From positions 1 through 31,565 of the IMG/VR virus record IMGVR_UViG_3300025128_000196: 31,565 nucleotides of DNA; one strand, 5' to 3'. Every line of letters starts with the position of its first letter. The stretch's first letter is position 1. The notes below the pieces were generated by a model. The model did no database searches. It worked only from the letters and a program-made list of their open reading frames with translations, and was not told the DNA's origin. Source of the stretch: a virus. Shown here piece after piece: positions 2,612-20,476 of this stretch. The translations under genes and the position numbers were made by a program.

Positions 2612-2847
2612 AAGAGAGCAAGTTATTAGAAATGCAAAACAAGATTAAAGCTGTGACCAACGTGTTACAGCAATTAATAAATGAAATAACACATCTTAGA
2701 GAATTAAGTGTAGGAACTTTAGAAACAATAAAGTTAATGCCTGATTATCAAGATGCCATTGATGCTTTAAAAAAGCAGATGGAAGAAAATGTAAAAGAAA
2801 AAGCAAAAGTAAAAGAAGATGGAGTTAAGCAACAAGATACTAAGTGA
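2608..2847 (+). CDS. Small helical hypothetical protein
   Basis: The protein is 79 aa and almost entirely predicted helix. Its heptad-like pattern of Leu, Ile and Val from about residue 5 to 60 (KLLEMQNKIKAVTNVLQQL) suggests a coiled coil, and its C-terminal tail is rich in Lys and Glu. A Shine-Dalgarno-like stretch (GAGGACAAGGAAG) immediately precedes the ATG, which is itself coupled to the previous stop by an ATGA overlap. The 3' end overlaps the ribonucleotide reductase start by 29 bases. No enzymatic motif is visible. The position just before the reductase could mean a role in nucleotide metabolism, but this is only context. Confidence 0.7.
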   Translation: MKESKLLEMQNKIKAVTNVLQQLINEITHLRELSVGTLETIKLMPDYQDAIDALKKQMEENVKEKAKVKEDGVKQQDTK

Positions 2848-4681
2848 TATAACAGTTTATATGAAGTATGCTAAATTCGTACCTGAGTTAAATCGTAGAG
2901 AGACTTGGGCTGAATTAGTTACCAGGAATAAAAACATGCATATTAAAAAGTATCCTGCGTTGACTGACCAAATCGAAGAAGCTTACAAATTAGTATATGA
3001 AAAAAAGATTTTACCGTCTATGCGATCATTACAATTTGGAGGTAAGCCTATTGAGATCTCGCCTAATCGAGTTTACAATTGTGCTTATTTACCTATTGAT
3101 AGCATTGAATGTTTTCATGAAATAATGTTTTTATTATTAGGTGGAACCGGAGTAGGTTACTCTGTACAACAACACCACGTAGCTAAGTTACCTATAGTTA
3201 ATAAACCTTATATTAAAAGAACTAGAAGGTTTTTAATTGGTGATAGTATAGAAGGATGGGCTGATGCTATTAAGGTTCTTATGAAGTCCTATATGGGTGA
3301 TAAGAGATCATCTAGCATACAGTTTGATTTTTCTGATATTAGACCAAAGGGAGCACAGCTCGTAACATCTGGAGGTAAAGCACCAGGGCCTCAACCATTA
3401 AAAGAGTGTATACTAAAAATTAAAGGTATATTTGATGGTAAAGAAGATGGAACACCATTAACAACTTTAGAAGCACACGACGTTGTTTGCCATATTGCCG
3501 ATGCTGTATTAGCAGGTGGTATACGTAGAGCAGCTTTAATTAGTTTGTTCTCTGCGGGAGATGATGAAATGATAGCAGCTAAGTCTGGAAACTGGTGGGA
3601 AACAGACCCACAAAGAGGTAGATCAAATAATTCTGCTGTTTTAATGAGACATAAAGTAACTAAAGAGTTTTTTATGGATCTGTGGAAACGTGTAGAGTTA
3701 TCAGGATCAGGTGAACCAGGTATTTATCTTAATAACGATAAAGACTGGGGAACTAATCCTTGTTGTGAAATAGCATTAAGACCTTTTCAGTTTTGTAACT
3801 TATGTGAGGTAAATGCTAGTGATCTTGAGTCACAAGAAGACTTTAACGATAGAGTTAAGAAAGCAAGCTTTATAGGTACGCTACAAGCTGGTTACACTGA
3901 CTTTCATTATTTAAGAGATATATGGAGAGAAACGACAGAGAAGGACGCCCTTATCGGTGTATCAATGACAGGGATAGGGAGTGCCGCTGTGCTGCAGTTG
4001 GATATGAAGGCCGCTGCAAGTATAGTCAAAAGAGAGAATACAAAGACAGCTAAGTTAATTGGTATTAATCCAGCTGCAAGATGTACAACCGTGAAGCCTG
4101 CTGGGACGACATCTCTGGCATTAGGAACTTCATCGGGTATTCACGCATGGCATGCAGATTACTATACACGTAGGATCAGAGTTGGTAAAAACGAATCTAT
4201 GTATAAGTATTTAGCAACTAATCATCCTGAGTTAATTGAAGATGAATTTTTTAGACCTCACGACACTGCTGTAATTAGTATACCGCAAAAAGCACCTAAA
4301 GGTTCTATATTAAGGGATGAATCACCATTTGATCTACTTGAAAGAATTAAAAAGGTAGCTACTGAATGGGTTAAACCTGGTCACAGAAAGGGATCTAACA
4401 CTCACAATGTTTCTGCAACTGTTAGTTTAAAGCAAGACGAATGGGACGCAGCAGGTAAGTGGATGTGGAAAAATAGAGACCATTATAATGGATTATCTGT
4501 ATTACCTTATGATGGAGGTACTTATACCCAAGCACCTTTTGAAGACATAAGTAAAGTTAATTACGATATGGCTATGAAACATTTAAAGAATGTTGATTTA
4601 ACTAGGATTGTAGAAACAGACGATGATACAGATCTTTCAGGTGAATTAGCCTGTGCAGGTGGAGCATGTGAAATAACATGA
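2819..4681 (+). CDS. nrdJ: Adenosylcobalamin-dependent class II ribonucleoside-triphosphate reductase
   Basis: The 620-aa protein is a monomeric class II ribonucleotide reductase of the Lactobacillus RTPR type. It reduces ribonucleotides to deoxyribonucleotides using coenzyme B12. The redox-active pair is Cys88 (in YNCAY) and Cys326 (in FCNLC). The thiyl radical Cys315 and base Glu317 lie in NPCCEI, 11 residues before Cys326, as in RTPR Cys408/Cys419. The C-terminal reducing pair Cys612/Cys617 lies in CAGGACEIT, with the spacing of RTPR Cys731/Cys736. The barrel signature KPAGTTSLALGTSSGIHAWH is complete. At 620 aa it is shorter than the roughly 740-aa Lactobacillus enzyme but has all key residues. 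No radical-generating small subunit lies nearby, as expected for class II. Activity would depend on host or environmental B12 and on host thioredoxin. Confidence 0.93.
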   Translation: MELSNKILSDITVYMKYAKFVPELNRRETWAELVTRNKNMHIKKYPALTDQIEEAYKLVYEKKILPSMRSLQFGGKPIEISPNRVYNCAYLPIDSIECFHEIMFLLLGGTGVGYSVQQHHVAKLPIVNKPYIKRTRRFLIGDSIEGWADAIKVLMKSYMGDKRSSSIQFDFSDIRPKGAQLVTSGGKAPGPQPLKECILKIKGIFDGKEDGTPLTTLEAHDVVCHIADAVLAGGIRRAALISLFSAGDDEMIAAKSGNWWETDPQRGRSNNSAVLMRHKVTKEFFMDLWKRVELSGSGEPGIYLNNDKDWGTNPCCEIALRPFQFCNLCEVNASDLESQEDFNDRVKKASFIGTLQAGYTDFHYLRDIWRETTEKDALIGVSMTGIGSAAVLQLDMKAAASIVKRENTKTAKLIGINPAARCTTVKPAGTTSLALGTSSGIHAWHADYYTRRIRVGKNESMYKYLATNHPELIEDEFFRPHDTAVISIPQKAPKGSILRDESPFDLLERIKKVATEWVKPGHRKGSNTHNVSATVSLKQDEWDAAGKWMWKNRDHYNGLSVLPYDGGTYTQAPFEDISKVNYDMAMKHLKNVDLTRIVETDDDTDLSGELACAGGACEIT

Positions 4682-5288: not shown

Positions 5289-8200
5289 TTATTTTATAAG
5301 CGTAAATTTTTTCTTTTTTTGTTTAGGTTTTATTTGCCATTCTGGCCAACCTAACATCATGGCAACTCTTTGCCAAACTTCAGCGTCTTCACCCATAGCA
5401 GCTGCTATATTATTAGTTTTAGTAAATAATCTATCTAATGGTACGTTAGTTGTTGCAGAGACAACTTTAGAAGCAGCTTCATAAGCTGGATTATCTATAG
5501 CAAAGCCCTTGTCAATCATATCATCTCCGTATTTATCCACCATGTAGCCTGCGGCTTTTAGTTTAGATACTTTAGAATCTATTGGTGGGGAAAAATCTAA
5601 CAACTTCCAAGCAGAATCTACATATTCAGGTCTTTTTCTTTTAGATCTTTCATATACATCTAGTAGTAAGTTTTTAGCAGTGGCTACAGCGGCTCCACCA
5701 TAACCTAAACCTCTTAATAGTGAGTCAACCATACCATTAGCTATACCAACATATTTCTTTTCTCTTTGTGCTGTTTCTTCATCATCATCTCCAAAGCCTA
5801 CTGCAAATAAAGCTTGTTGTAATACATTGAATATAAGGTTTTGCATAGCTCCATAATATATAATTTTAGATATATTATTCTTCCAATCACCTCTTTTATT
5901 CTTAAGGTCACTTGCGGCTTTCTTAATTATCCTAGCATATTGAGAAGGCGTATTAGCAAATGCTAATATAACTCTACCAACGTTACTTGCTTGTTGTTGT
6001 GATATTCTATCGGGTCTACTTGATTGTTGAGACTCTTCAGCTATTTCCCTAAAATCTCTAAATGCTTGTTCTTCAGCTTCTTTCTGAGGCATACCATCTT
6101 TAATTAAAGCATTTATTCTATTTCTATAATAAGTAGCACCACCAGAAGCAATAGCAAAGCTATCAGCTATTTGTGTAGGTAAAAATCCTTTTTGCAGTAA
6201 ATAATTTAAAGCAGCTTTAGCTTTATTTTTACTTGTAGCCGCAGCATCTGCTATTTCAGATTCAGATATATTAAGTTTTAACCCTTGTCTTCTATCTTTT
6301 AAAAAGTCTGAGTTCATTAATTTTGTAAAATCTTTCCAATATTGTTTTTGATTAGCAAAAGCTTTACCAGCTTTATAAATATTATTATCACTCCAGTTTA
6401 TAAAGTTTATAGAAGATATTGTCTGAAGTACAGCTGATCTAGTGTTAAAGAACATTATAGCTCCAATAGATCCGTTAATATAGTCTAATACTTGATTACC
6501 TATTCTACTTTCACTAAACAATCTATTTTTCCCAGTTTTCATTCTTGATAAAACATTTTCCATAGCTTCCCTATACTTAGGACCATATATGGCTTCCATC
6601 TTGTTTAAATTTTCTTTTGAAAATATTATATCAGCATTTGTTTGCCACTCTTCTAAATATTTAGCACGCTTTACAGTGTTTAAACCATTAATAAGATCAG
6701 TTGTTATTGTACCAACTAACCAAGAATCTTGTGGAGCTGGATAACCATCTGATTTATTTATAGCTTGCAATTGATCTGCAAATACTTTTAGCTTAGGGTT
6801 TTTGTCAATAACTTCAGTTAAATCTTTTAAATCTCTTTTTGATATACCTGGTATTTCTAAACCTTGCTTGTTCCAAAGATAAACTCTTACAGCTTGTTCA
6901 TTTGTAAATCCATCAATAGCTTCTTTACGTAAGTCTTTAGGTACTTCAAGTTCTTTTTTAAGAGCCTTAAAATCGTTCATTAAATTAACCCTATCTCTTG
7001 ATAAGTTTTCATAGGCTCTTGCAAAAGGATTTAATAATCTTTCTTTATACCAAGCCATTTGTTGATCACCTAATTTACCTTTAGCCAATGTTGGGTATAA
7101 TAAACCTACAAAATCCTCAGCTGATGGTGGAATAAAGAATTTAAACTTACCTTTATTAGCTCCAACTGTTTTAGCTCTAGCATCTGAATAAACTTTTTCA
7201 GCACCAATACCAGTTTTGTTTTCTAATATTTTATTAAAGTCAGAGTTTAAATCTTTTGATAAAGAAAATTTAGCTTGTTGTACTTTAGATTTAACATCGA
7301 TAACAGACATTACATCTTTAACTGCTTTAACATTTTGATATGCGTCATCAGCAAAGTAGAAGTCATTATAACCTTCAGCTGCTTTATCTACCATCCAATT
7401 AGCTTTAGCTTCAGCATTTGATTTACCTAACCCTGTTATATTTTCTAATGGTATATTTAATCCTTGACTATCTAAAAACTCTTTAATAGCTACATCAGCT
7501 TCAGGTGCTCTTGCTGTTAATACAAACACATCTTCAGTGCCTCTTGCAGCTTGTATTTTTTTAGCTATATCTAAAAGTGGACCAGGTTTACCTTTAGTTA
7601 CTTTATCAAATTCAGTAAAATCAAATACATAGCCTTGATCTAATAGTTCTTTACCTTTAGTAGCAAATTCTTCAGCAGTTAAACTACCTTCAGTTCCATC
7701 AGGCGCTGTAAATAAAACATTAGATTTAGTAGTTGCTAAAGTGTCATCAAAGTCAAATACTCTAATTTTTTTAACTTTAGCATTAACATCTCTAGCTATA
7801 TTTAAAGCCTCATCTATACTAGAAGCTTTACTTAGTAAATCTTCAATGTTTAAATTATCTTCTACATCTAAAACTTTAGAATCTTTAAGAGTTTTATTAG
7901 TACTTTTACTGGCTTTTAATTGGCTTGGCGCTATTTTTAAGTATTGATCTAATTGCTTTTTAGCTTCTTTAATATCTAAATCTTCTAATATTACTTGTTC
8001 AACTAGGTTATTTTGAAAAGCTGAAACATTTTGTATAGAACTAAATTTATTATCTATACCTAGTCCAAATTCTTCTATTATAGATTTACCGGTTACAACA
8101 TTTTTTATAGTATTTAAATTAATACCAGCCATTGCCATCCTTATAATAGGATCTGTAGTTATATTAGTTCCATTTGGTAAAGTCGCTGCGTAGTCTATAT

Positions 8201-11200
8201 CTAACTTTGAATCATCTTTTTTAGATAATACTGTTTGGTGAAAGTTTTTTCTAACTTCTTTCATTATAGGTTTAGCAGCATTATTTTTTATAGCCCACAA
8301 CAAGTTAGCACCAATTACAGAGGCTGGAGGATTATGCTCTTCTCTATATTTTTTTATACCATCTTTCTTGTCTCCGTACTCAAAAACGTCAGACATGTAT
8401 TTAAAAGGTGCAGCTGTTTTTATAAGACCACTAGTTGCTTGATAACTTTGTATTATAATCATACCAGCTATATCCATAGACATTCTATCTTGAACTGCTT
8501 GAGCAAGTTTATTAACAACGTGATCTAAAATTTCCATATTTAAATCACTTTGCCTCTTTTTATTATCTAAAAAACTTTTTGTTATTTTACCGTCTTTTGG
8601 TAATTTTATTTGTTTAAAAGTGCCTTCAAATGGAGATTTTTCAACATTTTTAACTAACTTTTTGTAAGCAGGGTCTTTTGTACTATAGTATAATCTACCT
8701 GGCTTAGCTACATAATCATCAAACTCTGCTACTTGTTTTTTATTTACTCTAGTAAATTTTCCATCTTTTTTCTGCTCAAATAAAATATATTCACCATTAG
8801 TTCTTTTAATCCACTTTTTACTAGCTTTAGGATCTCTTACAAATTTTCCATCCTTAAAATCTCCATAAAAAGTTTGCCTACCACCACTACCCATCATACC
8901 AGCAGCGACTATAGACATATCTAAGTATTTAGAAGCTTTTAACATTAACTCCTGAAGCTTTGGTCTAGTAGATTCATTTATAGCTTCAGATTTAAATCCT
9001 AAATATTTAGCTATAGCTTTTTTATCTCTTAATAAAGCTAGTTCATTTAATTTATTTTGTATAGGTTTAGTAGATAAACTAAACATAGCAGTTGGTGTGC
9101 CGCTTTTAATATCTTGCAAAGCAGGTTCAGGCATACCTTCTTTTTGTAATTGCTCTCTAACAGTTTGATTAGTTATAGCTTTACCAGTTTGATTAGCTAA
9201 AGCAATTATTCTAGCAGATATATTCCTATCATCTCTAGTTGGTTTACCATCTACAAAACCAAATACCTCTAAAAATTCTTTATCTGTAATATTAGGTTTT
9301 TTTATTTGTACGTTTAATCCAGCACCTGTTTTAGCTCTTACACTACGTTTATTATAAAATTTATCAAGTAATACTTTAGGAACACCAGTAGATTTAAAAT
9401 CTTTGTTATAGCCATCAGGTAACAAAGCTTTTAATAAATCAATATTATTTTTTATATATCTTTGAGCGTTAGCTATTTCACCTTTAGTTAAGTTGGCATT
9501 ATTTAATATTTTATTAGGTGATATACCAAATGCTTCACCAATAGTTTCATTAGCTAAGTTTTTAAGAGTTTTGTAATTAACTTTAGATAAGTCAACATCT
9601 TTTACTTTTTCACTAACTTCTTTTATAGCTTTATCTTCTAAGTTTAATCTTTTTGCTACTTTAATCTTTCTCTCTGCTTGTCTTATTTCTTTTTCAGTCC
9701 TATCATCAGTTGTAGTTTCTGAGTCATCTACAAGTTGTCTAGCTTGCTCTGAGTCAATACTAGTTGTCTCTGCTTGCTCACCTATTTGTTCATCATAAAA
9801 TGCCTGACGTTTAGGTCTTATATTAGAATTAACCCAAGTAGAAAACTCTGTAGATCCATCATATCTTTTTAATATACTATCAAATTCTTTATTAACAAAT
9901 GATATAGCTTCTTCTGGAGCAATAGTACCTTTAGATATATCATAGCCTAAAGCTTTTAAAGCTACATTATCATATTGCTTTATTAATTCTTCTACATCTG
10001 TGTTAGCAGGATCTTTTTTATATTGTTTAGCTAAGTCGGTTACTTCAGATTTAGAAAACTTAAGTATAGTTTCATCAACTCCTTTTTCAGCTACATCTTT
10101 AACTCTGTCTTTTAATCTTTCACTTACAACAACTCCTTCTTTAGCTGCTTTAACTTGAGCTTTAGTAAACTTACCTTTACTTATAGATTTATTATAATCT
10201 TTTATAAAGTTATATACATCTTTACTGTCGTTAAAATCTATATTACTAAAACCAGCGTTTTGTAATATACGTCTAACAAAATCTTTTAATTTAGTAAATA
10301 CTCCTTCTTCAAATTTAATATCACCAGTGGCTATTGCTTCAGAAAACAATGTTAATACTTCTTCGGCTTTAGTAGCTTCGTTAATGTCAGGATCTGCTTT
10401 ATATTGTTCTATTCTAGCGGCAAGATCTGAGTTTTTAAAGTCTTCAGTGTTAATATTACTTAATTGCATTTTAATAGCATTAGCTAAAGCAAAAGCGCTT
10501 TCGTCGCCTTTATTAAGTGTATTAAATAAAACACCATGTAATATTTCATGAGCGGCTGTAGTTACAGCACCTTCTTTAGAAGCTACATCTTTATTAATAA
10601 TAATAGTTTTACCATCAGGCATTATAAAACCTCTTTGCTTGCCAGCTTGTTTAGCTTTAGAAGCCGCTATGTTAGTATTTTCTTTAAGATAATTTTCTAC
10701 ATCGGCTTCGGTATCTAGCTCTATTACATTTAAATCAATATCAGCTTTTTCTACAGCTTTAACAGCTGCTCTAGTAGCTGTTTCTACAGATTGTATATTA
10801 CCAAGTTCTGTATTAATTTCTCTAATTCTTTCTTTAGCTGGACCAGTGAAAGCTTCATCTTCTTTATTTACCTCATCTTGTAATTTTTGTCTTTCAAGTA
10901 TTAAATCAAAAGATTTTTGCTTAGCTTTTGTTCCAAACTTCTTAGGTATTTTTAACCCTGCGTTTCTAGTGTTAGCTAAAGATTCTATTTCTAATTGTTT
11001 TTCTTCAGCTGTTATTTCGCCATTTTTAAACTTATTATCTATGTTTTTTTGAGCTGCTGAAAAGAACTTGTCAGCCTCTGCTAATTGAATATTAGATGTT
11101 AAATCAAATTTAGTAGCTACATCTCTAGCAGAGCTTTTAAGCTCAACTAAACTTTGTCTAGCAACATTTCCAGCAAAAGGCATAAAGAAACCAGCTATCA

Positions 11201-13007
11201 TACCCATTTCACCTTCCTTGTTTATTTGATCAATGTCTATGAATTTAAACATATCAGTTGCACCACCTGTTTGAGTACCTATAGAAACTTGATTTAAAAA
11301 AGACTGAGCACTTTCTGTAAGTCTTTCTGTAAAACCTGCTTCAGTCATATCTAATCCTTTTCTTACAGCGTTGTTTGCAAACTTTTTTATTTCACCTTTA
11401 TAAAGTGATCCGACACCACCAGCTGTATTTTTACCAAGTTTAGTAAAAGTAGAGTTTAATACTTTTTTAGCTCCAAATCTTTCTGCTGCAGTTTGTACAG
11501 CAGCAAAAGCTGCGGCATTAGCTTGGCTAGCGTATTTACCTTCTTCTAAAGCTTTTATATAATCTTCTCTATTTGGCTCTCTACCTAGTTCATCTCTTAG
11601 TCCATCTGTTAAGGCACCCCAGTAGTTTTCAGCATACATAGGCGTAAACATGGCTGCAGTAGATATACCTGCTGTAATAGGCCCACCAAAAACAGAAAGA
11701 CCACCAACAATTAATTGAGGTGCTTGCTCTGCTATTATAGATGGAGCAGCTTTAGCAGCATTTAAAGCATACTCAAAACCAAAACCTTCTGGATCTGGTG
11801 ATTCAGTAAATAAAGCAAGATAATCATCTGTTGCTTTTATTTTATCTAAACCTTCTACTATGTTTTCAGTAAGATTTTCTTTTTTACTTTTTAATTCCTC
11901 TAATCTATCTTTTACTTTAACTTTTTCTACTGTAAAAGTAGGACGACCTGATATTCCAACCTCTTGTTTTCTTACACTTATTTCGTCATCTAAACCTATA
12001 GATTTATTTTCTATTTTAGTTTCAAGATCTTTTAATTCTTCATCACTTTTTTGAAAAGCCAATTGCTCTCCACTTAACATTGTTTTATCAATAGCACTTT
12101 TAAAGGAATTAATACCTTTATAAGCCATTTCTTTAACACCTCCAGGGCTCCAAAAACTTGACTCATCTATACCTCTTAAAAACTCATCATTATATCTTCC
12201 CCATTCCTTATTCAACTCTCCAGCTACATCAGCTCCAACAACCTCTAAGTCTTTTATTATTTTATTAAAAGCAGGACTTTTTTCTAACTCACCGTAAACT
12301 TCTGCTTTATAAAAGTCATTAAATTCTTTTTTAGCTTTAGCAACTCCCTCGGGAGTAGTTAAATCAGCTTTGTTTTGTATTTCTAAAGCCTTCTCTTCAA
12401 GAATATCTTTTTTATTAAACTGCTGTATTTCAACTAAAGCTTTAATTCCTTCATCATCTCTTATTGTTTTACCAATAGACTCGTTTATAGCATTTGTTAA
12501 ATCTTCTTTAGTTTTAAACTCTTTAATACTTTCAGGCATATTATCTGCCATTTTCTTTTTAACCTCTGGTCTAGGTACATAAACAGCTTCATCTCCAGTT
12601 CCGCTTTCTAGTATTAAATAACTAGGTTTTAAAACGCTTGATATTTGCTCGTCTTTTTGTTCTTTACTTAAATTTGGGTCTTTAGTTATATTTATAACTT
12701 TATCTTTATATTCTTTTGTTTGAACTTCTAGTGGTCTGTCGTCTTGATCTTGTAGAGATTGTATAACTTCATTTAGATAAACTCTATTACCACCAACCAT
12801 TATAGACGCTTGTGGCTTGGTAATAGGAGCGGCTATAGAAACATCTTCAGAAACTAATTCCGCGTCTTCTACGGCTGGAGCTTTTGTAGTCTCAGTAATT
12901 GTTTCTATTTTTTCTGGAACATAATTTCTTATAACTAAAGCAATATTCTCTTCGCTTTCACCAGCGTTGATCATATTTTGAACTATTCTTTCTAATTCTT
13001 CATTCAT
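5289..13007 (-). CDS. Giant multidomain (polyvalent-type) virion protein with HExxH peptidase and HAD phosphatase domains
   Basis: At 2572 aa this is the largest and last gene of the structural block, and is probably carried in the virion and ejected. The visible layout is as follows. Residues 1-400 are charged and helical. A hydrophobic Gly/Ala-rich stretch lies at about 418-455. A zinc-peptidase motif, HEILH at 820-824, has E882/E883 as possible third ligand. A sigma-region-2-like segment lies around 990-1070 with FSTW ending at Trp1058. A HAD domain (about 1745-1905) has DFDDT at 1752-1756, Thr1831 in FVLTAR, and the acidic pair D1887-D1888 in YFADDAY. From about 1957 (FIPPSAEDF) to 2480 runs a region resembling large polyvalent protein-associated domains such as LPD38, with hydrophobic helices near 2382-2412. 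Three F-S-x-S linkers (F984, F1309, F1914) separate the parts. It starts one base inside the stop of the upstream gene (TAATG). Processing, activity and host targets are inference. Confidence 0.85.
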   Translation of the reverse strand: MNEELERIVQNMINAGESEENIALVIRNYVPEKIETITETTKAPAVEDAELVSEDVSIAAPITKPQASIMVGGNRVYLNEVIQSLQDQDDRPLEVQTKEYKDKVINITKDPNLSKEQKDEQISSVLKPSYLILESGTGDEAVYVPRPEVKKKMADNMPESIKEFKTKEDLTNAINESIGKTIRDDEGIKALVEIQQFNKKDILEEKALEIQNKADLTTPEGVAKAKKEFNDFYKAEVYGELEKSPAFNKIIKDLEVVGADVAGELNKEWGRYNDEFLRGIDESSFWSPGGVKEMAYKGINSFKSAIDKTMLSGEQLAFQKSDEELKDLETKIENKSIGLDDEISVRKQEVGISGRPTFTVEKVKVKDRLEELKSKKENLTENIVEGLDKIKATDDYLALFTESPDPEGFGFEYALNAAKAAPSIIAEQAPQLIVGGLSVFGGPITAGISTAAMFTPMYAENYWGALTDGLRDELGREPNREDYIKALEEGKYASQANAAAFAAVQTAAERFGAKKVLNSTFTKLGKNTAGGVGSLYKGEIKKFANNAVRKGLDMTEAGFTERLTESAQSFLNQVSIGTQTGGATDMFKFIDIDQINKEGEMGMIAGFFMPFAGNVARQSLVELKSSARDVATKFDLTSNIQLAEADKFFSAAQKNIDNKFKNGEITAEEKQLEIESLANTRNAGLKIPKKFGTKAKQKSFDLILERQKLQDEVNKEDEAFTGPAKERIREINTELGNIQSVETATRAAVKAVEKADIDLNVIELDTEADVENYLKENTNIAASKAKQAGKQRGFIMPDGKTIIINKDVASKEGAVTTAAHEILHGVLFNTLNKGDESAFALANAIKMQLSNINTEDFKNSDLAARIEQYKADPDINEATKAEEVLTLFSEAIATGDIKFEEGVFTKLKDFVRRILQNAGFSNIDFNDSKDVYNFIKDYNKSISKGKFTKAQVKAAKEGVVVSERLKDRVKDVAEKGVDETILKFSKSEVTDLAKQYKKDPANTDVEELIKQYDNVALKALGYDISKGTIAPEEAISFVNKEFDSILKRYDGSTEFSTWVNSNIRPKRQAFYDEQIGEQAETTSIDSEQARQLVDDSETTTDDRTEKEIRQAERKIKVAKRLNLEDKAIKEVSEKVKDVDLSKVNYKTLKNLANETIGEAFGISPNKILNNANLTKGEIANAQRYIKNNIDLLKALLPDGYNKDFKSTGVPKVLLDKFYNKRSVRAKTGAGLNVQIKKPNITDKEFLEVFGFVDGKPTRDDRNISARIIALANQTGKAITNQTVREQLQKEGMPEPALQDIKSGTPTAMFSLSTKPIQNKLNELALLRDKKAIAKYLGFKSEAINESTRPKLQELMLKASKYLDMSIVAAGMMGSGGRQTFYGDFKDGKFVRDPKASKKWIKRTNGEYILFEQKKDGKFTRVNKKQVAEFDDYVAKPGRLYYSTKDPAYKKLVKNVEKSPFEGTFKQIKLPKDGKITKSFLDNKKRQSDLNMEILDHVVNKLAQAVQDRMSMDIAGMIIIQSYQATSGLIKTAAPFKYMSDVFEYGDKKDGIKKYREEHNPPASVIGANLLWAIKNNAAKPIMKEVRKNFHQTVLSKKDDSKLDIDYAATLPNGTNITTDPIIRMAMAGINLNTIKNVVTGKSIIEEFGLGIDNKFSSIQNVSAFQNNLVEQVILEDLDIKEAKKQLDQYLKIAPSQLKASKSTNKTLKDSKVLDVEDNLNIEDLLSKASSIDEALNIARDVNAKVKKIRVFDFDDTLATTKSNVLFTAPDGTEGSLTAEEFATKGKELLDQGYVFDFTEFDKVTKGKPGPLLDIAKKIQAARGTEDVFVLTARAPEADVAIKEFLDSQGLNIPLENITGLGKSNAEAKANWMVDKAAEGYNDFYFADDAYQNVKAVKDVMSVIDVKSKVQQAKFSLSKDLNSDFNKILENKTGIGAEKVYSDARAKTVGANKGKFKFFIPPSAEDFVGLLYPTLAKGKLGDQQMAWYKERLLNPFARAYENLSRDRVNLMNDFKALKKELEVPKDLRKEAIDGFTNEQAVRVYLWNKQGLEIPGISKRDLKDLTEVIDKNPKLKVFADQLQAINKSDGYPAPQDSWLVGTITTDLINGLNTVKRAKYLEEWQTNADIIFSKENLNKMEAIYGPKYREAMENVLSRMKTGKNRLFSESRIGNQVLDYINGSIGAIMFFNTRSAVLQTISSINFINWSDNNIYKAGKAFANQKQYWKDFTKLMNSDFLKDRRQGLKLNISESEIADAAATSKNKAKAALNYLLQKGFLPTQIADSFAIASGGATYYRNRINALIKDGMPQKEAEEQAFRDFREIAEESQQSSRPDRISQQQASNVGRVILAFANTPSQYARIIKKAASDLKNKRGDWKNNISKIIYYGAMQNLIFNVLQQALFAVGFGDDDEETAQREKKYVGIANGMVDSLLRGLGYGGAAVATAKNLLLDVYERSKRKRPEYVDSAWKLLDFSPPIDSKVSKLKAAGYMVDKYGDDMIDKGFAIDNPAYEAASKVVSATTNVPLDRLFTKTNNIAAAMGEDAEVWQRVAMMLGWPEWQIKPKQKKKKFTLIK

Positions 13008-14677
13008 TATTTAGAATATTTTTCTATTAAAGCCTGTGCAGTAGCTAATTGACTGTTGCTTGTGTTATCATCTTTAGATTCTACAAGTTTTATAAAATCA
13101 TCATAATCTGATCTATCATCTAATCTAAATTCTTCAATTACTCCATCATCCATTTCTACACTAATAGCATCAACTCCAAGACTTGCTTCTTTAAAAGTAA
13201 CATCAGGATATATCTTTTCTAATTTTTCAACAACATCGGTTTCATTACCATTAAATTCATCAAAACTTATTAAAGGATCTACATCAAAAGATTCTTCACC
13301 AACTATAAAATCACCTGTTTTTTCATTAATATATGTTTCAATTTTAGCTACATTGTAGTTTCTCGGCGTTTGCTTTAATAGTTTACGCTCAAGTTTTTCA
13401 ATATCTTTCCTGTTGTTTAAATTAAAAGTTTGAGGAAAAGCATTGCCAGTAGGTTCTCCACTTTTATCTAAGTCTTGAGTTACAAAAGTAATTTTATTAC
13501 CATCACGAGTTATTTTTCTAATATTTCTACCATCTAAATCAGTTCCTATATATGGGTCTTCACTTCCTTGTTTACCTTCTTTTAAGTCTTTTAAGTTACT
13601 TATAAGTTTATCTCCAAAACTTTTTTCTTCAGCTTTTATAGTTTCTGAAGTAGATTTTTGTTTCTGAGCTCGTTGTTTTTTTCTTTCAGGAATTGTAACT
13701 TCATCCGTAGCTATACCAACTGTCGTTAAATCTGGTAATCCTTTTCTTTGTTTAATTCTATCAATTTGGAAATTAATATACGCTTCTTTTTGCTTGTCAT
13801 TGTTTTCATCAAATACTCCAAGGCTTAACTTAACATCATTAGGAAGCCTTTGATAATTAGTTCTATTAAAGCTATCTAATAAACTTTTATCATTTTTAAG
13901 AGCATCTACTAAAAAAGCATTAGCATCTTCCATGCTTTTTATTTCTGTTTGTGTAATTTTTTCGCCGTTTAATGTTTTATTCTTAATTGTTTGTTCTAAA
14001 TTTTTATAATTATCAGCGTAGTTGTCAAATATTAAATCAAGCTTTTCAGTGTCATCTTCTAAATAATTTAAAAATGGTTTTTTTTCATTTAAATAAGCCC
14101 TACTATTTACTATAAAATCTTTACCACCTTCATCTTTCATTTTAAATACCCAAACGCCGTTAACTAATTCTGGTTTTATATTAGAACCACCTTTATTATA
14201 GTCTCTTATAAAATCAATTCTATTAGTATCTTGAGCTAATAAAGCTGCTCCAACTTGATCTAATTCTAATGACTCAGAATCTTCAAATTTTTGACCTTCA
14301 CTATTAAAAGCTGCCAAAAATAAACCAGCTTCTTTAGCTGCAACTTCTAACTCTCTTTTAGCTTTTAAGTAAGCAGAATTATCCTTACCAATAGAATCTA
14401 TACCTAACCTATAAACTTCTTCGTATTTATCTTGTAGAGTTGACTTTACTTGATCATCTATAGTTATTTCAGCGTATTCAGGAAATTCATTAACGCTAGA
14501 TGATAAACCTAATAAATCTTCATTAAGTTTATTCTGAAGTTTAATCCTATTTTTCTCTTCATTTTCTCTTAGCTCAGCTTGTTTAGCTAAAGACTTTTCA
14601 ATATCTTCAACGCCTTTAGTAAATTGACCAACGCTTGTATCTATTACCCTTCCTGGGTTGTAATATGTTCCTGCCAT
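13007..14677 (-). CDS. Probable internal virion protein (T7 gp15-like position)
   Basis: The protein is 556 aa. The N-terminus (MAGTYYNPGRVIDTS) is followed by a long charged coiled-coil-like region (about 25-115) and then a mixed alpha/beta acidic C-terminal half with FKEASLGVDAISVEMDDG. No catalytic motif is visible. It lies between a small Ala/Gln-rich protein and the giant protein, the place where podoviruses encode the middle component of the ejected internal complex. Its stop overlaps the start of the giant gene by one base, implying coupled synthesis. The assignment rests on position and composition, not on detected homology. Confidence 0.6.
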   Translation of the reverse strand: MAGTYYNPGRVIDTSVGQFTKGVEDIEKSLAKQAELRENEEKNRIKLQNKLNEDLLGLSSSVNEFPEYAEITIDDQVKSTLQDKYEEVYRLGIDSIGKDNSAYLKAKRELEVAAKEAGLFLAAFNSEGQKFEDSESLELDQVGAALLAQDTNRIDFIRDYNKGGSNIKPELVNGVWVFKMKDEGGKDFIVNSRAYLNEKKPFLNYLEDDTEKLDLIFDNYADNYKNLEQTIKNKTLNGEKITQTEIKSMEDANAFLVDALKNDKSLLDSFNRTNYQRLPNDVKLSLGVFDENNDKQKEAYINFQIDRIKQRKGLPDLTTVGIATDEVTIPERKKQRAQKQKSTSETIKAEEKSFGDKLISNLKDLKEGKQGSEDPYIGTDLDGRNIRKITRDGNKITFVTQDLDKSGEPTGNAFPQTFNLNNRKDIEKLERKLLKQTPRNYNVAKIETYINEKTGDFIVGEESFDVDPLISFDEFNGNETDVVEKLEKIYPDVTFKEASLGVDAISVEMDDGVIEEFRLDDRSDYDDFIKLVESKDDNTSNSQLATAQALIEKYSK

Positions 14678-14687
14678 AATTTATTAT

Positions 14688-15326
14688 TTAACTATAAGGT
14701 TTTGATCTTGGCGGGTTATAACCGTCGTCTCCACCAAAAACAGATCCAAGATCTTCAGTAGTTGCTAAAGTACCTAAAGCACTTGTAAAAGCGCCTAAAC
14801 CTTGCCCCCTTGATGCCATCTGTTGTGCTTGTGCGTTTTCTAGTAGAGCTTGAGCCCTATTTAATTGTCCCATTTCCCTTGTTTCTTGCTGTTCAAAAAC
14901 AAACTGCTTACCTAAAGCTTCCATTCTTTGTGCTTGTAATTCTCCTTGAGCTCTTAATTTCTCATTGTTTGCTTCTTGTGTTTCTAAAGTAGCAGAAACT
15001 CCTTGTTTAGATTTTAAAGCTGCTTGAGCTAAAGCAGTTGCTCCACCAGCTCCAGTTTGTCTTAAATTATCCAATGTGTTTGCTAAAGCTAAATCTGCTT
15101 GTTCTGCTTGCATTTCAGCTGCTTGTGTAGCAACACTTAAATTAGCATAAGGATTTGTTATATCTGCATATGGATTTATAATAGCTTGTCTAGATTCTTC
15201 TAAATTTTTTATTATTGTTTTTTGATCTTCAGCATCCCCTTTTGCTTTATTAGCTTGGAAAGCCGCAAACATACCAGCCACTGCTTTAGTACCTGCTATT
15301 GCTAATCCTATTTCTGATTCTGTCAT
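14688..15326 (-). CDS. Probable internal virion protein, Ala/Gln-rich (T7 gp14-like)
   Basis: This 212-aa protein has an N-terminal small-residue hydrophobic stretch (about 6-22, GLAIAGTKAVAGMFAAF), a tandem NPYA motif (INPYADI, TNPYANL), and then a long Ala/Gln/Glu-rich helical region (about 65-180). It ends with a Gly-rich tail. Length and composition match the T7 gp14 class (196 aa), which forms part of the channel that crosses the outer membrane during ejection. The gene lies 10 bases before the 556-aa gene. I recall close relatives in uncultured marine podoviruses but cannot verify this. Confidence 0.65.
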   Translation of the reverse strand: MTESEIGLAIAGTKAVAGMFAAFQANKAKGDAEDQKTIIKNLEESRQAIINPYADITNPYANLSVATQAAEMQAEQADLALANTLDNLRQTGAGGATALAQAALKSKQGVSATLETQEANNEKLRAQGELQAQRMEALGKQFVFEQQETREMGQLNRAQALLENAQAQQMASRGQGLGAFTSALGTLATTEDLGSVFGGDDGYNPPRSKPYS

Positions 15327-15336
15327 ATTTTAAATT

Positions 15337-17028
15337 TTAATAAGATGATAATACGTAATTTGATGATACGCTAAATAATTCTTTTGGTCCACCTAATTGA
15401 GTGGTATTGTCTGTAGATATTTTTACAGTTGCAAAATAACCTTTTATTCCTGACATAGCATTTCCAAATATAACTTCACCTGCTCTTACTGTGCTATTGC
15501 TAACTAAGTTGGCTACATATCTATTTTCTTTTCTATTAAAACCAGCCCTAAAAGGTATACCATTTTGAGTATATAAACCTTCATCATAACTTTTAACAGA
15601 GTTTGTAATATCTTGATTTTCTATATAATTACTATTAACTAAATCAAAACCTTGTAAATCTGACTCATAAGAATCTATTTGCCAGCCATTACTTCCCTCA
15701 TAAGAGACTGTATTAAAGTTTTTTGTTACAGAAACAATAGGGTTGAATATGAAAGTTATATTTGAGTTACTTCTAACTCCGTAAAATAGTCCAGCATTAT
15801 TTCTAGTTGTATTGTCGTAATGCTCGTAAATATCAGAATCGTAAAAACTATAATATTTATTTTTTAAACTTGCCATAAATTTAGGCTCGTAAGTGTAAAA
15901 ACTTACCCAACCATTTATTGCGTCTTCAAAAGCGACTGTATTGAAAATATCAGTGCCATTTGGAACTACATCTTTATCTTGAGTAGATACAACATAGTTT
16001 TGATTGTGCACGTCATAACCCGCTACAATTCTATCTTTAATGTATTTAGTAAAAGTTATATCACCGGCTATAGGTGTGCCAGGGCTTCTATCTAAGTATA
16101 TGTTATTTTCATCAAACACGCCAACAACATTTGCTATTATACTTCCGGTAGACTGAGGTATAGTAACTTGCATGCCTTTTTCTATAAAACTAACATTAGA
16201 TCCGGTTACATTTATTTTAAAAGGTGCTATTGTTTGAGCAGTATTAAAAACACATGTAAAAGTAAACTCTTTAAATTGATCTTCTATTTTACCAAGCTCG
16301 TCTCTGAAATAATCTGACATGCCATATTGAGATATAGGTGTCATACCATCTCTTGATAACCTCATTACAGCATTTCTATATTTATCTACAAAATATCTTC
16401 TATACCCATAAACAGCCAATGTTTCTGGGTTTTTACTTATTCCATATTCACCTACATAAGGTGTTATCTGACCAATCACATTATCTGTAGAAGTTAATGC
16501 AGCATTTCCTTCAGCTGAATAAATAGCATCTTTATCTATTAAAGCCCTACTTACTTTATTTTCTTGGAATATAGCTAAATTACTGTCTAAAGCATTTAGT
16601 TTTTGTATAGAACCATACATTGGATCAACTGCTTTTGTTATTTGTTCACCAACGGAAAAAACATTAGTATCATTAACATTAGTTATAGAGTTGTACAGCC
16701 CAGAGTAAATCAAAGCATTTGGTCTTCTTATTTGCTCATTAGTATCTTCTATTAAATAAGCTCTAACGCCGTAGCCACCATTAACGTTGTTAAAACCACC
16801 AGTAATTCTAGCTTCTTCAATAATCCAGTTTCTATCGTTATCGCTAAGTGTTGTTATAGGTTTTATTCTTCCTAAAGGTGAATTAGCAGAAGTAGGATAT
16901 AGAGGGTAGTTTTGAGGATTGCTAGGTAACCCAGGAAAAACAGGTTGATATGCAGCATCACCAGTACCAGTAGTATTATTTATATTCTTTTTTAATACAA
17001 AAGCATTGAAAAACTTTATTTTAGCCAT
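15337..17028 (-). CDS. Tail structural protein, beta-rich
   Basis: The 563-aa protein is rich in Asn, Thr, Tyr and Val with little charge, typical of beta-structured virion proteins. It begins MAKIKFFNAFVLKKN and has a Pro/Asn-rich segment at about 28-60. From about 120 onward the sequence alternates short strand-like stretches with Gly/Asn turns. It follows the 1143-aa gp10-like protein, and the two may interact in the tail knob or needle. No enzymatic motif is visible. I could not match it to a named family; a role as tail hub, plug or receptor-contacting protein is possible. Confidence 0.6.
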   Translation of the reverse strand: MAKIKFFNAFVLKKNINNTTGTGDAAYQPVFPGLPSNPQNYPLYPTSANSPLGRIKPITTLSDNDRNWIIEEARITGGFNNVNGGYGVRAYLIEDTNEQIRRPNALIYSGLYNSITNVNDTNVFSVGEQITKAVDPMYGSIQKLNALDSNLAIFQENKVSRALIDKDAIYSAEGNAALTSTDNVIGQITPYVGEYGISKNPETLAVYGYRRYFVDKYRNAVMRLSRDGMTPISQYGMSDYFRDELGKIEDQFKEFTFTCVFNTAQTIAPFKINVTGSNVSFIEKGMQVTIPQSTGSIIANVVGVFDENNIYLDRSPGTPIAGDITFTKYIKDRIVAGYDVHNQNYVVSTQDKDVVPNGTDIFNTVAFEDAINGWVSFYTYEPKFMASLKNKYYSFYDSDIYEHYDNTTRNNAGLFYGVRSNSNITFIFNPIVSVTKNFNTVSYEGSNGWQIDSYESDLQGFDLVNSNYIENQDITNSVKSYDEGLYTQNGIPFRAGFNRKENRYVANLVSNSTVRAGEVIFGNAMSGIKGYFATVKISTDNTTQLGGPKELFSVSSNYVLSSY

Positions 17029-17044
17029 AATATACTATCACTTG

Positions 17045-20000
17045 TTATTGAGTAAATATTACATCAAATTGACTAGATAAAGTACTTAAACCAGTACCGT
17101 TAGCATCAATTAGTTTTAATTTATATACACCATCAACTGCTAAGCTGCTTGCTATAATTGTTCTGTCTTGATTAGACCCAGTATTAGGAACTACATATAT
17201 TTCCGGATACAAAGCTTCGGTAGTTGCGTCTACAACTGCTAAAAACAATTGCTCTTTATTTCTACTAGTATCAATTGAACCATTTAAGAAGCTATCAGCT
17301 GTCATAGTAAACAAGTTACCTATAGGTTCTCTAACTACAGCTGGTGGATTGTTATTAAATATAGGCGCTATGTCTAGTAGTTGGCAATTACTTATTCTAA
17401 TAGGAGCATTAGTATATAAAGGTGTTGGTGAAGCAGAAGTATCAGTAGCTAGTAAATTAAATGTATAATTTTCATTTACGTTAGCATTTGAGTTAAATAC
17501 AAATAAAGCGTTTGTTTGTATTTTATATTTAGTAACACTTCCAGTGTTATCTGTTAATATTTGAAACTCTGCAGATCTATCAGCACCAGTTCCATCAGTT
17601 ACTAAATCTATTGACAAAGTAGAATTTGTTGTAAGTTTAGTTCCAGCAGCATCTACTAGTTCAAAAAACAATGTAGCGTCTGCACCACTAGCAGTGGATT
17701 CTGTATGTATATATTGTACATTTTGCCCTAATGACGTCGTGTTATTGCCAGCTGAATCTTCAACTCCTTTAGGAACAAGACTAACCACTTCATTATTAAA
17801 ATCAGATATTAAACCTGAGCTTGAACTTTCCCAAAAAATATCTAAAACAGATTTAGTAGGTTCAGTTTCAAAAACACCTAAATCTTGCCAAGCTTTTTCT
17901 ATATTGTATTTATCAGCATATGAAGGTGTTGCTCCTATTTTAAAACCAACAGTTTCTATAACTGCAACAAAAGGATTTGCTTGTGCATCAAAGAGTATGT
18001 CATGAAAGTTAAATTTAAAATCCGCAGCAGCGCTACCACCAACAAAATATGGATACCAAGGTATAGGATTTTGCGTTGTACTGTCAGCAGCATCGTTAAT
18101 TCCACCTGGGTACAATTCACCTTTAGTAGTTGTCCATCTTCCCAAATCTCTAAAAGGTTGAATAGAAACAACTTTAGATCCTTTAGGCCCAATAGAAGAT
18201 TGTTTGTTGTAAGATGTAGTGCCATAAGCATATATAGGGTTTACTCTATTAAACAATAAAGTTTCACTACCGAAAGTATCTTGATTACCACTAATAGTAT
18301 TTAACTCTCTTGGAACTTTATTTATGTTATCTCCACTTAAAGTTAATGTAGATAATTTATTAGTGGAAATAAAAGATGGTAAAAATTCAGAGTTACCTGC
18401 CCCATTAGCTACAGGAAAGTCAGTGTTGTTTTCAGTATAACCAATAGTATCCCAATATATTTCCCCAGCTAAAGCACCAGGCGTGTAAACATTGTAGTAA
18501 TCTTGATCTTGTTGTTTTACAACAATTCTATAGCTATAATATCCTAATGGGTTTGTTTGTGAATATAAACCTGGATAACCTTTTTTAGATAACGTTAAAG
18601 GAATCTCAGATCTTAAAGTTAAATCTAAATAATTACCAGTAAAGTTAACACTATTAGTTCCGAAGTTTTCATATGAAGTATATATAGTAGAATTTTTACT
18701 ACCTGCAGTTATATTATTTTCATCATTTAATAATACATTTGAAGCCCTACCATATCTATCAACTAACACTATACCAACTTGATAACTTCTGTTTTGCTTT
18801 AAAGTATGTAAAGGAAACTCATTGCTTAAGTTCCTATTTGCTTGATCTTGATCACTGCTTCCAGACGGGTAAGTTTTTTGATTATAATTTAAATCATAAT
18901 GCAAGTTGTCTGGAGAACTATGTTTATCTAAAAAATTACCATAAACAACTCTATTAGATACTACCTCTTGTGTTAATGCTCTTATGGGAACTTTGTCAAA
19001 CACCCTTATTAATTCTGCTTCAGGAAGCACTTTAAGTGGCTTGGATGATAAATAGTTATACTGGTATTTATCTGTTGCTCCTAGAGCTGTTAAAACGCTT
19101 ACTGGGACGTCTTCTATAACTCTAACTGCTAACTCATCAGAGTTTTTTACTAATATTTGTAGTTCTGATATTTTTAAATTATCTTTTACATTAGACCCTA
19201 AGTCTGGTAGTATTAAGTTTAATTTAACTTGGTCAACCCTATTTTCCATAAAGCTAACATTGCCACTTTCTAAAGTTACTTGCTCATCGTCATTTATAAA
19301 ATAACCGAACTGCTGTGGAACAAAAGCAGACTGTGTAAATGGAGCTATTAAAGAATACTCATCATCTTCATATTTAAATCTATAGCTAAATTTGGCAAAT
19401 TCATCTTTTAGTAAATTAGTGTCTCCTTTATAACTACTGTTATATTCTGGATTTGCCCTTTGTACCATTACTTTAACAGTTGAACCATTTACATATTTAC
19501 CTATAGCTGAAGTTGCTGTTACACTTAGCGTAGACACACTTGTAACAATATACTCATCTTCGTTATTTATAGTAATTTTATCTCCAATAACTCCAGTTGC
19601 TTGAGCTTTTAAATCAGGGTTGTTAGCATCTTGAACTATAGTAGAATAAGCAGGACTTGAAAACGTGAATAAACCTGAAGCACTAGTATACACAGCTGTA
19701 GTAATAATATGAGCAGGTAAGTACTGTTGTGAATTTGAAATTAAAGTAGGATTATTAGATGCATCTAAAAAACTAAAAGCTTCATATGGAGCAAACTTAG
19801 AAACAGATATTTGATCTTCATTGAAATAATAAGGATTATTAATTCCTGAAAATTCATAGCTATCATCGAATGCTCTTTGTATATTTATTTTCCTTGGTTG
19901 ATTCCTATTATCAGTCCAAAATAATAAATCTTCTAATAAGTTTACGTTTAAAATAGGTTGTGTTTTAGAGAAATTAAGGAAATTTCCAGCAATTAAAACC

Positions 20001-20476
20001 CTATAAGTATTTGTAATAACATTATATTCAGCTATATAACATCCAGCTCCTTTGTAAATAAAAACACCTGGAAAACCACTAGATGTATCTATGTAATCTG
20101 CAGGTGCAAAATTACTTAATTGATCGTTAGAACCATCAGTATAATCAGTTAAAAACAAATATATTTTATCGTTAAATATATCCATATAATAACCTATTAT
20201 TTCTAAATTAGGTAAAGTTAGCTCAGTTGGTCTTATTACAGTGCCGTACTTTTCTGTTACCTTTTGCCTTTCTAAAGCTGCTATGTCTTCTTTTAAACTT
20301 ACATTAACACCTTTTATTATGTTACCTAAAACATTTTCAATAGCACCGACGTCTGGACCTTCTGATCTACTTATATTAATATTTTGAGCATCCCTATACT
20401 CACCATTAGGTAAAAGCCTAGCGTCTAAGTCTTTATTCATTTTAGACTTGAGGAAAGTATTTTTTATTTCAGCCAT
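17045..20476 (-). CDS. Large tail/stabilization protein, P22 gp10-like (crAss-like stabilization protein type)
   Basis: The 1143-aa protein opens with LKSKMNKDLDARLLPNGEYR, followed by DVGAIENVLGN. This is the N-terminal signature I associate with packaged-DNA stabilization proteins of P22 gp10 type in crAss-like and marine podoviruses. The first about 700 residues are repeated beta-rich blocks with YLFLTDY-type strands, compatible with a propeller. The last about 250 residues are Thr/Ser/Asn rich and may form an immunoglobulin-like or fibre-like domain. It directly follows the adaptor/ring gene by 3 bases, the order expected for head-tail connector assembly. At 1143 aa it is much longer than P22 gp10 (472 aa), so it may also take over other tail-knob functions. 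Confidence 0.7.
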   Translation of the reverse strand: MAEIKNTFLKSKMNKDLDARLLPNGEYRDAQNINISRSEGPDVGAIENVLGNIIKGVNVSLKEDIAALERQKVTEKYGTVIRPTELTLPNLEIIGYYMDIFNDKIYLFLTDYTDGSNDQLSNFAPADYIDTSSGFPGVFIYKGAGCYIAEYNVITNTYRVLIAGNFLNFSKTQPILNVNLLEDLLFWTDNRNQPRKINIQRAFDDSYEFSGINNPYYFNEDQISVSKFAPYEAFSFLDASNNPTLISNSQQYLPAHIITTAVYTSASGLFTFSSPAYSTIVQDANNPDLKAQATGVIGDKITINNEDEYIVTSVSTLSVTATSAIGKYVNGSTVKVMVQRANPEYNSSYKGDTNLLKDEFAKFSYRFKYEDDEYSLIAPFTQSAFVPQQFGYFINDDEQVTLESGNVSFMENRVDQVKLNLILPDLGSNVKDNLKISELQILVKNSDELAVRVIEDVPVSVLTALGATDKYQYNYLSSKPLKVLPEAELIRVFDKVPIRALTQEVVSNRVVYGNFLDKHSSPDNLHYDLNYNQKTYPSGSSDQDQANRNLSNEFPLHTLKQNRSYQVGIVLVDRYGRASNVLLNDENNITAGSKNSTIYTSYENFGTNSVNFTGNYLDLTLRSEIPLTLSKKGYPGLYSQTNPLGYYSYRIVVKQQDQDYYNVYTPGALAGEIYWDTIGYTENNTDFPVANGAGNSEFLPSFISTNKLSTLTLSGDNINKVPRELNTISGNQDTFGSETLLFNRVNPIYAYGTTSYNKQSSIGPKGSKVVSIQPFRDLGRWTTTKGELYPGGINDAADSTTQNPIPWYPYFVGGSAAADFKFNFHDILFDAQANPFVAVIETVGFKIGATPSYADKYNIEKAWQDLGVFETEPTKSVLDIFWESSSSGLISDFNNEVVSLVPKGVEDSAGNNTTSLGQNVQYIHTESTASGADATLFFELVDAAGTKLTTNSTLSIDLVTDGTGADRSAEFQILTDNTGSVTKYKIQTNALFVFNSNANVNENYTFNLLATDTSASPTPLYTNAPIRISNCQLLDIAPIFNNNPPAVVREPIGNLFTMTADSFLNGSIDTSRNKEQLFLAVVDATTEALYPEIYVVPNTGSNQDRTIIASSLAVDGVYKLKLIDANGTGLSTLSSQFDVIFTQ

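Follow-up and report, generated by a model that had tools for sequence, protein, structure and literature searches.

A giant protein of uncultivated marine crAss-like phages with zinc-peptidase-like and Pnkp-type HAD domains, a candidate ejected polyvalent protein

Introduction

What a phage might do with a single chain of 2572 residues that combines the signature of a zinc peptidase with that of a HAD phosphatase is the question raised by IMG/VR record IMGVR_UViG_3300025128_000196, the whole of which (31,565 bases) was analysed and is called here the window. A preliminary description made from the sequence had noted HEILH (residues 820–824) and a full set of HAD motifs in this one protein, and these residues were verified in the translation. 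The answer we prefer, to which we give an even chance, is that of a polyvalent protein, ejected and divided into its modules by cleavage at a recurrent [KR]FS peptide, so that an end-healing phosphatase is released.

Results and Discussion

The Giant Gene, Its Neighbors and Its Relatives

The giant open reading frame starts with ATG at 13007 and runs on the minus strand to 5289 (ORF listing and translation). The features of the gene and of its upstream neighbors are as follows.

5289–13007, minus strand: gene P0001 for the giant, putatively polyvalent protein, 2572 aa, with relatives encoded by 247 viral contig stretches (viral-contig scan)
10686–13007, minus strand: N-terminal region, residues 1–774, poorly conserved, with a single hydrophobic stretch at 432–455 (conservation profile, hydropathy)
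10113–10685, minus strand: zinc-peptidase-like domain, residues 775–965, with H820, E821, H824 and E883 (invariance in a 25-member alignment)
10047–10061, minus strand: KFSKS linker motif, residues 983–987 (position, family-level enrichment)
7797–10046, minus strand: middle region, residues 988–1737, varying among relatives, with a loose KFS at 1654
7233–7796, minus strand: predicted HAD phosphatase domain of Pnkp type, residues 1738–1925 (phrog_415, E = 6e-6; model Z 13.4; invariant residues)
7254–7271, minus strand: KFSLSK linker motif, residues 1913–1918, directly past the HAD core (position)
5328–7232, minus strand: conserved C-terminal domain, residues 1926–2560, mostly helical (conservation, AlphaFold model, BFVD matches)
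13007–14677, minus strand: neighbor of 556 aa, candidate internal or ejection protein (by position only)
14688–15326, minus strand: neighbor of 212 aa, possibly an internal protein like T7 gp14 (position and general look)
15337–17028, minus strand: muzzle-like tail protein (Pfam crAss_MUZ_C, 6e-8, above cut-off)

The virion block is ordered as TerL, portal, capsid, ring proteins, muzzle, two small genes and finally the giant, and the synteny from TerL through the two small genes bears out the earlier statement that the giant closes this block. Family searches with the 556-aa neighbor gave no significant match. Two adjacent ORFs of 1143 and 563 aa (15337–20476) match PHROG 14478 at different places, one close to the start and one in the direction of the end, and elemo phages have a single gene of 1470 aa at their place, so that the tail or muzzle protein is probably split in the window. 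A B12-dependent-like ribonucleotide reductase of 620 aa (2819–4681) is accompanied by genes for thymidylate synthase, a MazG-like protein and a DUF1064 protein on the opposite strand.

The TerL of the window shares about 64–65% identity with that of ctfjg026, 45% with the Flavobacterium elemo phages and 37% with Cellulophaga phi46:3. Identity to the window was 73–88% in 20 long clade contigs (one read in pieces) and 35–48% in five isolate relatives. Judged from TerL, the crAss_MUZ_C muzzle and portal homology, the window is a fragment of a crAss-like podovirus related to Pachyviridae and Elemovirus. Genome bins that include the C-terminal module of the giant belong to Flavobacteriaceae and other Bacteroidetes, and also to other phyla that may be misbinned; the hosts of the clade are likely Bacteroidota, and this uncultivated marine phage probably infects flavobacteria (Flavobacteriia).

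A scan with the HAD alignment matched at least 498 stretches. Complete giants of the clade mostly measure 2280–3430 aa, with a maximum of 4686, and their residues 1–800 can hardly be aligned, while 1725–2560 aligned throughout (conservation profile). When the whole giant and its C-terminal third were compared by tblastn with 50,697 phage records nothing significant was found. Giant structural proteins are also encoded by Elemovirus, Pachyviridae, Pervagoviridae and ctfjg026, where their genes close the virion block or lie near its end, and those of elemoE and ctfjg026 share HExxH with the giant of the window. The giants of elemoE, ctfjg026 and phi46:3, at a comparable position, are nearly unalignable to it, with almost no [KR]FS and, on direct motif check, no HAD motifs; in the cultured relatives the giant is present and the HAD is absent. 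Maribacter phage Panino (PP540027.1, 28228–33717, L182) encodes at the position of the giant a protein of ~1829 aa annotated as tRNA methyltransferase.

Kinship With Polyvalent Proteins

The giant carries at least two unrelated enzymatic domains in one chain close to virion genes, as is characteristic of polyvalent proteins. The preliminary description had likened its C-terminus (~640 aa) to their domains, a likeness that stood at the level of predicted fold and failed at that of Pfam profiles. In an AlphaFold model of residues 1725–2563 (mean pLDDT 78), the C-terminal part matches the C-termini of many viral proteins in BFVD (E 1e-12 to 1e-4, TMq mostly 0.4–0.55) at 10–15% identity, some of them named ART-PolyVal, LPD-containing or MuF. 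In profile searches the HAD matched phrog_415 with the E-value listed above; M78 stayed below cut-off for the peptidase, and no LPD domain was matched by Pfam profile in the giant. A match to the transposase HTH PF01498 at residues 1257–1292 was far below cut-off.

The place of the giant in the gene order matches that of T7 gp16-like ejection proteins, and some relatives are annotated as 'structural protein'. Both would suit a mainly structural giant, a channel or ejection component with enzymes serving assembly and not the infected cell, which we consider improbable, given that the phosphatase residues are invariant though the N-termini of the clade hardly align. The same annotations, and the synteny with crassvirus cargo genes, lead us to infer that the giant is present in the virion and injected. 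Crassvirus cargo proteins have been detected in virions by mass spectrometry (PMC10172136), and gp45–gp50 of PhiCrAss001, among them RNA polymerase-associated proteins, are large, helix-rich, virion-borne and thought to be ejected (PMC10172136). They resemble the giant in description and in an apparently similar place in the gene order.

As the 2017 survey by Iyer et al. presents them (PMC5512222), phage polyvalent proteins have in common with the giant a multi-enzyme chain near virion genes, an HExxH peptidase and the C-terminal fold. With respect to that account, the Pnkp-type HAD, the nested kinase and the [KR]FS linker appear as additions in the clade, and the word "phosphatase" is absent from the main text of the survey.

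The Zinc-Peptidase-Like Domain

HExxH followed by a third ligand, the combination typical of zincin metallopeptidases, can be recognized in the sequence: H820, E821, H824 and E883 are invariant among 25 aligned peptidase domains (alignment A4), and the conserved E883 is likely the third zinc ligand. Of 150 homologues, 143 have HExxH on the N-terminal side of the HAD, against 0.5% of composition-shuffled copies, so the motif is not due to chance. The metallopeptidase proposed earlier from HEILH therefore appears as a strongly selected zinc-peptidase motif. No Pfam family exceeded its cut-off for this domain; the commonest weak match was M78 (14 of the 25 domains; E 0.006 in the window, below cut-off), and a PDB sequence search with the peptidase alignment revealed no significant relative. 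In four homologues (L007, L023, L103 and L168) HExxH is replaced by EELFH.

The HAD Domain and Its Possible Substrate

Motif I of the HAD (DFDDT) starts at D1752, motif II (LTAR) comprises T1831 and R1833, and motif IV (FADD) comprises D1887 and D1888, while K1868 and K1875 are candidates, tentatively assigned, for the lysine of motif III. An alignment of 63 members shows no variation at D1752, F1753, D1754, T1756, L1830–R1833, D1887 and D1888. Nor did any of 47 members vary in LTAR, in either aspartate of motif IV or in the D, F, D and T of motif I, and among 154 full-length HAD segments found by regular expression motif I was present in 153 and motif II in every one. The catalytic residues of both the peptidase and the HAD are under strong selection. 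At L029:12820–13060 and L055:9990–10330 an apparent frameshift breaks the giant ORF within the HAD, for which an assembly or sequencing error, decay or a programmed shift are possible explanations.

The commonest profile match of the domain is the PHROG named polynucleotide kinase (phrog_415), found in 39 of 47 members; 17 of the 47 also match one named phosphoheptose isomerase, and the Pfam HAD models all stay below cut-off for the clade HADs. The five best VIA matches of the modeled domain, a Rossmannoid HAD fold, are T4 Pnkp or Pnkp1 (Z 13.4–12.2 over 114–132 residues), headed by T4 Pnkp with Z 13.4 over 126 residues and an rmsd of 2.4. Phosphoserine phosphatase (Z 11.3) and Nir2 (Z 11.2) are the next fold families, and since rows within 1 Z count as ties the lead of Pnkp amounts to one to two Z units. 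Foldseek with the whole 1725–2563 model against the PDB, and PDB sequence searches with the HAD and the HAD plus C-terminal alignments, gave no significant match.

In T4 Pnkp, D165, D167, R176, R213, D254 and D278 are essential to the phosphatase. At the level of motifs, D1752, D1754, R1833 and D1887/D1888 are the counterparts of T4 D165, D167, R213 and D277/278. Similarity to T4 PseT and bacterial Pnkp1 extends to the phosphatase fold, the residue counterparts just named and, in some relatives, the association with a kinase. Unlike T4 Pnkp, the clade HADs have no conserved arginine at the position of Arg176; the region of T4 D254 could be aligned only with low confidence, and in the hhalign comparison of the HAD profile with PseT the alignment spans motif I alone. 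Because of the missing counterpart of R176 and the restriction of the PseT alignment to motif I, we hold the predicted activity as a 3'-end phosphatase to be evenly balanced.

The intact HAD had been taken earlier to imply a real substrate, perhaps nucleotides or nucleic-acid ends, and an action on ends looks plausible from the predicted Pnkp fold, the polynucleotide kinase profile and the kinase insertion described below. A HAD acting on a small molecule such as free nucleotides or sugar phosphates, its likeness to Pnkp merely reflecting the common HAD core, would agree with the lack of a conserved Arg176, with the matches to phosphoheptose isomerase and with the short distance in Z to phosphoserine phosphatase and Nir2. 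We regard it as rather unlikely, as polynucleotide kinase is the commonest profile, the five best folds are all Pnkp and the kinase inserted in some relatives is closest in sequence to that of Pnkp. A virion RNA polymerase, with DFDDT as a DxDxD-like motif, was also considered; the giant of the window has no DxDxD, and the full HAD set and the Pnkp fold oppose this assignment for the HAD segment.

A Kinase Nested in the HAD of Some Relatives

In L040, L048 and L049 an insertion of about 200 residues separates HAD motif I from motif II, and it matches the Pfam families AAA_33 at 1e-15 to 1e-16 and Zeta_toxin at 1e-11 to 1e-12. A dedicated scan located such a kinase-in-HAD at 11 loci, and no kinase match lay outside the giant in the three long contigs that carry it; the giant of the window itself has no kinase. 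T4 Pnkp has kinase and then phosphatase in tandem, whereas the kinase of the clade, where present, is nested in the HAD of a giant from the late region, past motif I and ahead of motif II. A different insert of ~45 aa occupies this position in L042, L046 and L047.

In a PDB sequence search with the insert the top match was the Clostridium Pnkp kinase and the fifth was T4 PNK (E 0.003–0.03), and the model of the insert (pLDDT 80, pTM 0.51) reached VIA Z values of 13.8 with the Pnkp kinase, 13.7 with O-phosphoseryl-tRNA kinase and 11.6 with zeta toxin. From sequence and model, a PNK-like kinase is favored over a zeta-like one, though not proven. Were it instead a UDP-sugar kinase of the zeta-toxin type, the HAD–kinase pair would act on cell-wall precursors and not on nucleic acids, and several observations point that way: the Zeta_toxin match is above cut-off, Foldseek puts zeta toxins first by E-value and zeta-like kinases figure among the polyvalent domains in the survey's listing (PMC5512222). 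We think this unlikely, seeing that AAA_33 outscores Zeta_toxin, that Pnkp kinases lead the PDB sequence search and the VIA comparison, and that the kinase is missing from the window.

DNA Ligase in Clade Genomes

An ATP-dependent DNA ligase (PF01068) was found above cut-off in 17 of the 20 long clade contigs versus 0 of six relatives in which no HAD was found, of which three had their giants checked directly for motifs and all six lacked a match to the giant of the window; T4, the positive control, was detected. The presence of a ligase fits a 3'-phosphatase supplying it with ends. As ligase and HAD both follow a single TerL clade, their co-occurrence counts as about one event. RNA repair with an RNA ligase was rejected, the lone PF09414 match being sub-threshold and overlapping the DNA ligase ORF; PF09511 matched neither the clade contigs nor the positive control.

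The [KR]FS Linker and a Proposed Role for the Giant

The linker peptide has the form [KR]FS, often KFSK and then S or T, and KFSK is the second commonest tetrapeptide repeated within a protein among the giants. A stricter form, [KR]FS[KLEDQ][STAKN], occurs in 153 copies in 152 giants versus about 22 expected by shuffling, distributed in 55 clusters of flanking context, and 456 other ORFs of the same loci show no excess (10 copies, 9.4 expected). P-values for [KR]FS are inflated by common descent and the pattern was picked after examples had been seen, so more weight can be placed on the distinct contexts and the control ORFs. With three copies (983, the loose one at 1654, and 1913) against about one expected in the giant of the window, the enrichment is a claim about the family.

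Sites upstream of the HAD mostly lie past HExxH (75 of 83, 54% expected), and module breakpoints seen by BLAST are ~3.5-fold denser near [KR]FS. In 86 of 150 homologues a copy follows the HAD at a distance of up to 60 aa (2.3% expected), and in 38 a copy precedes it by up to 75 aa (2.8% expected); 29 have the HAD bracketed on both sides, with a spacing of mostly 175–230 aa, that is, a cassette of ~200 aa.

The model that we propose takes the giant as a large polyvalent protein that would be carried in the virion and pass into the cell along with the DNA on ejection, made up of an N-terminal part, a zinc peptidase, exchangeable modules on [KR]FS(K) linkers, a Pnkp-type HAD and a helical C-terminal domain. 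Around packaging or entry a protease would cut at [KR]FS and free the modules, among them a HAD unit of ~200 aa. This unit may then strip 3'-phosphates from broken DNA or RNA ends, a ligase sealing the healed ends before any phage gene is expressed, and the P-loop kinase within the HAD of some relatives could supply the matching 5'-kinase step. The preliminary description had proteins of this type act against host functions, but an end-healing phosphatase might just as well serve to protect nucleic acids of the phage itself.

Autoprocessing by the peptidases of polyvalent proteins was already proposed in the survey cited above (PMC5512222). The four homologues with EELFH still carry [KR]FS, so cis cleavage by the giant's own peptidase would not always be needed; the cutter may act in trans or be another protease, or the motif may have another role. 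A rival view, to which we give nearly an even chance, denies that [KR]FS(K) is cut and sees in it a signal for binding, packaging or unfolding of the injected chain, or else a recombination seam for module exchange. The retention of the motif where HExxH is degenerate, its placement at module breakpoints, as expected of seams, and a somewhat over-used AGT among the linker serine codons all agree with this. Yet TCN and AGY codons are mixed there, which argues for selection on the peptide, as do the 55 context clusters, and a pure exchange seam would leave the near absence of the motif N-terminal of the peptidase unexplained. A DNA-level recombination signal as its sole cause is disfavored by the same mixture of codons.

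For cleavage itself SPN3US offers a precedent, its head and ejection proteins being cut by a prohead protease (PMC5694885, PMC10052503); the protease is a separate one there, and in the clade cleavage is presumed. More tentatively, and as a possibility that we rate below an even chance, the clade giants would be injected polyproteins in which [KR]FS(K) is a dedicated processing signal for swapping effector cassettes C-terminal of the protease, the near-universal cassette being the ~200-aa Pnkp-type end-healing phosphatase delivered before phage expression. Polyvalent proteins and Pnkp are already known; a Pnkp-type HAD as a near-constant clade module, the nested kinase and the linker were not found in our literature search. 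The kinase insertion, the bracketing of modules by [KR]FS and the absence of the HAD from cultured relatives go beyond the preliminary description. The proposed role would add a nucleic-acid end-healing phosphatase, sometimes with a nested kinase, to the possible entry cargo of phages, and it makes a cheaply testable prediction on how giant polyvalent proteins are split into working enzymes. Should [KR]FS indeed mark processing sites, sequence would suffice to locate the borders of modules and the hidden effectors in this clade.

In L113, L131, L143 and L149 an extra domain past the HAD is followed by a second copy of the linker, similar to 'DVKS..QQ...KFS', which looks like the insertion of a cassette at this linker.
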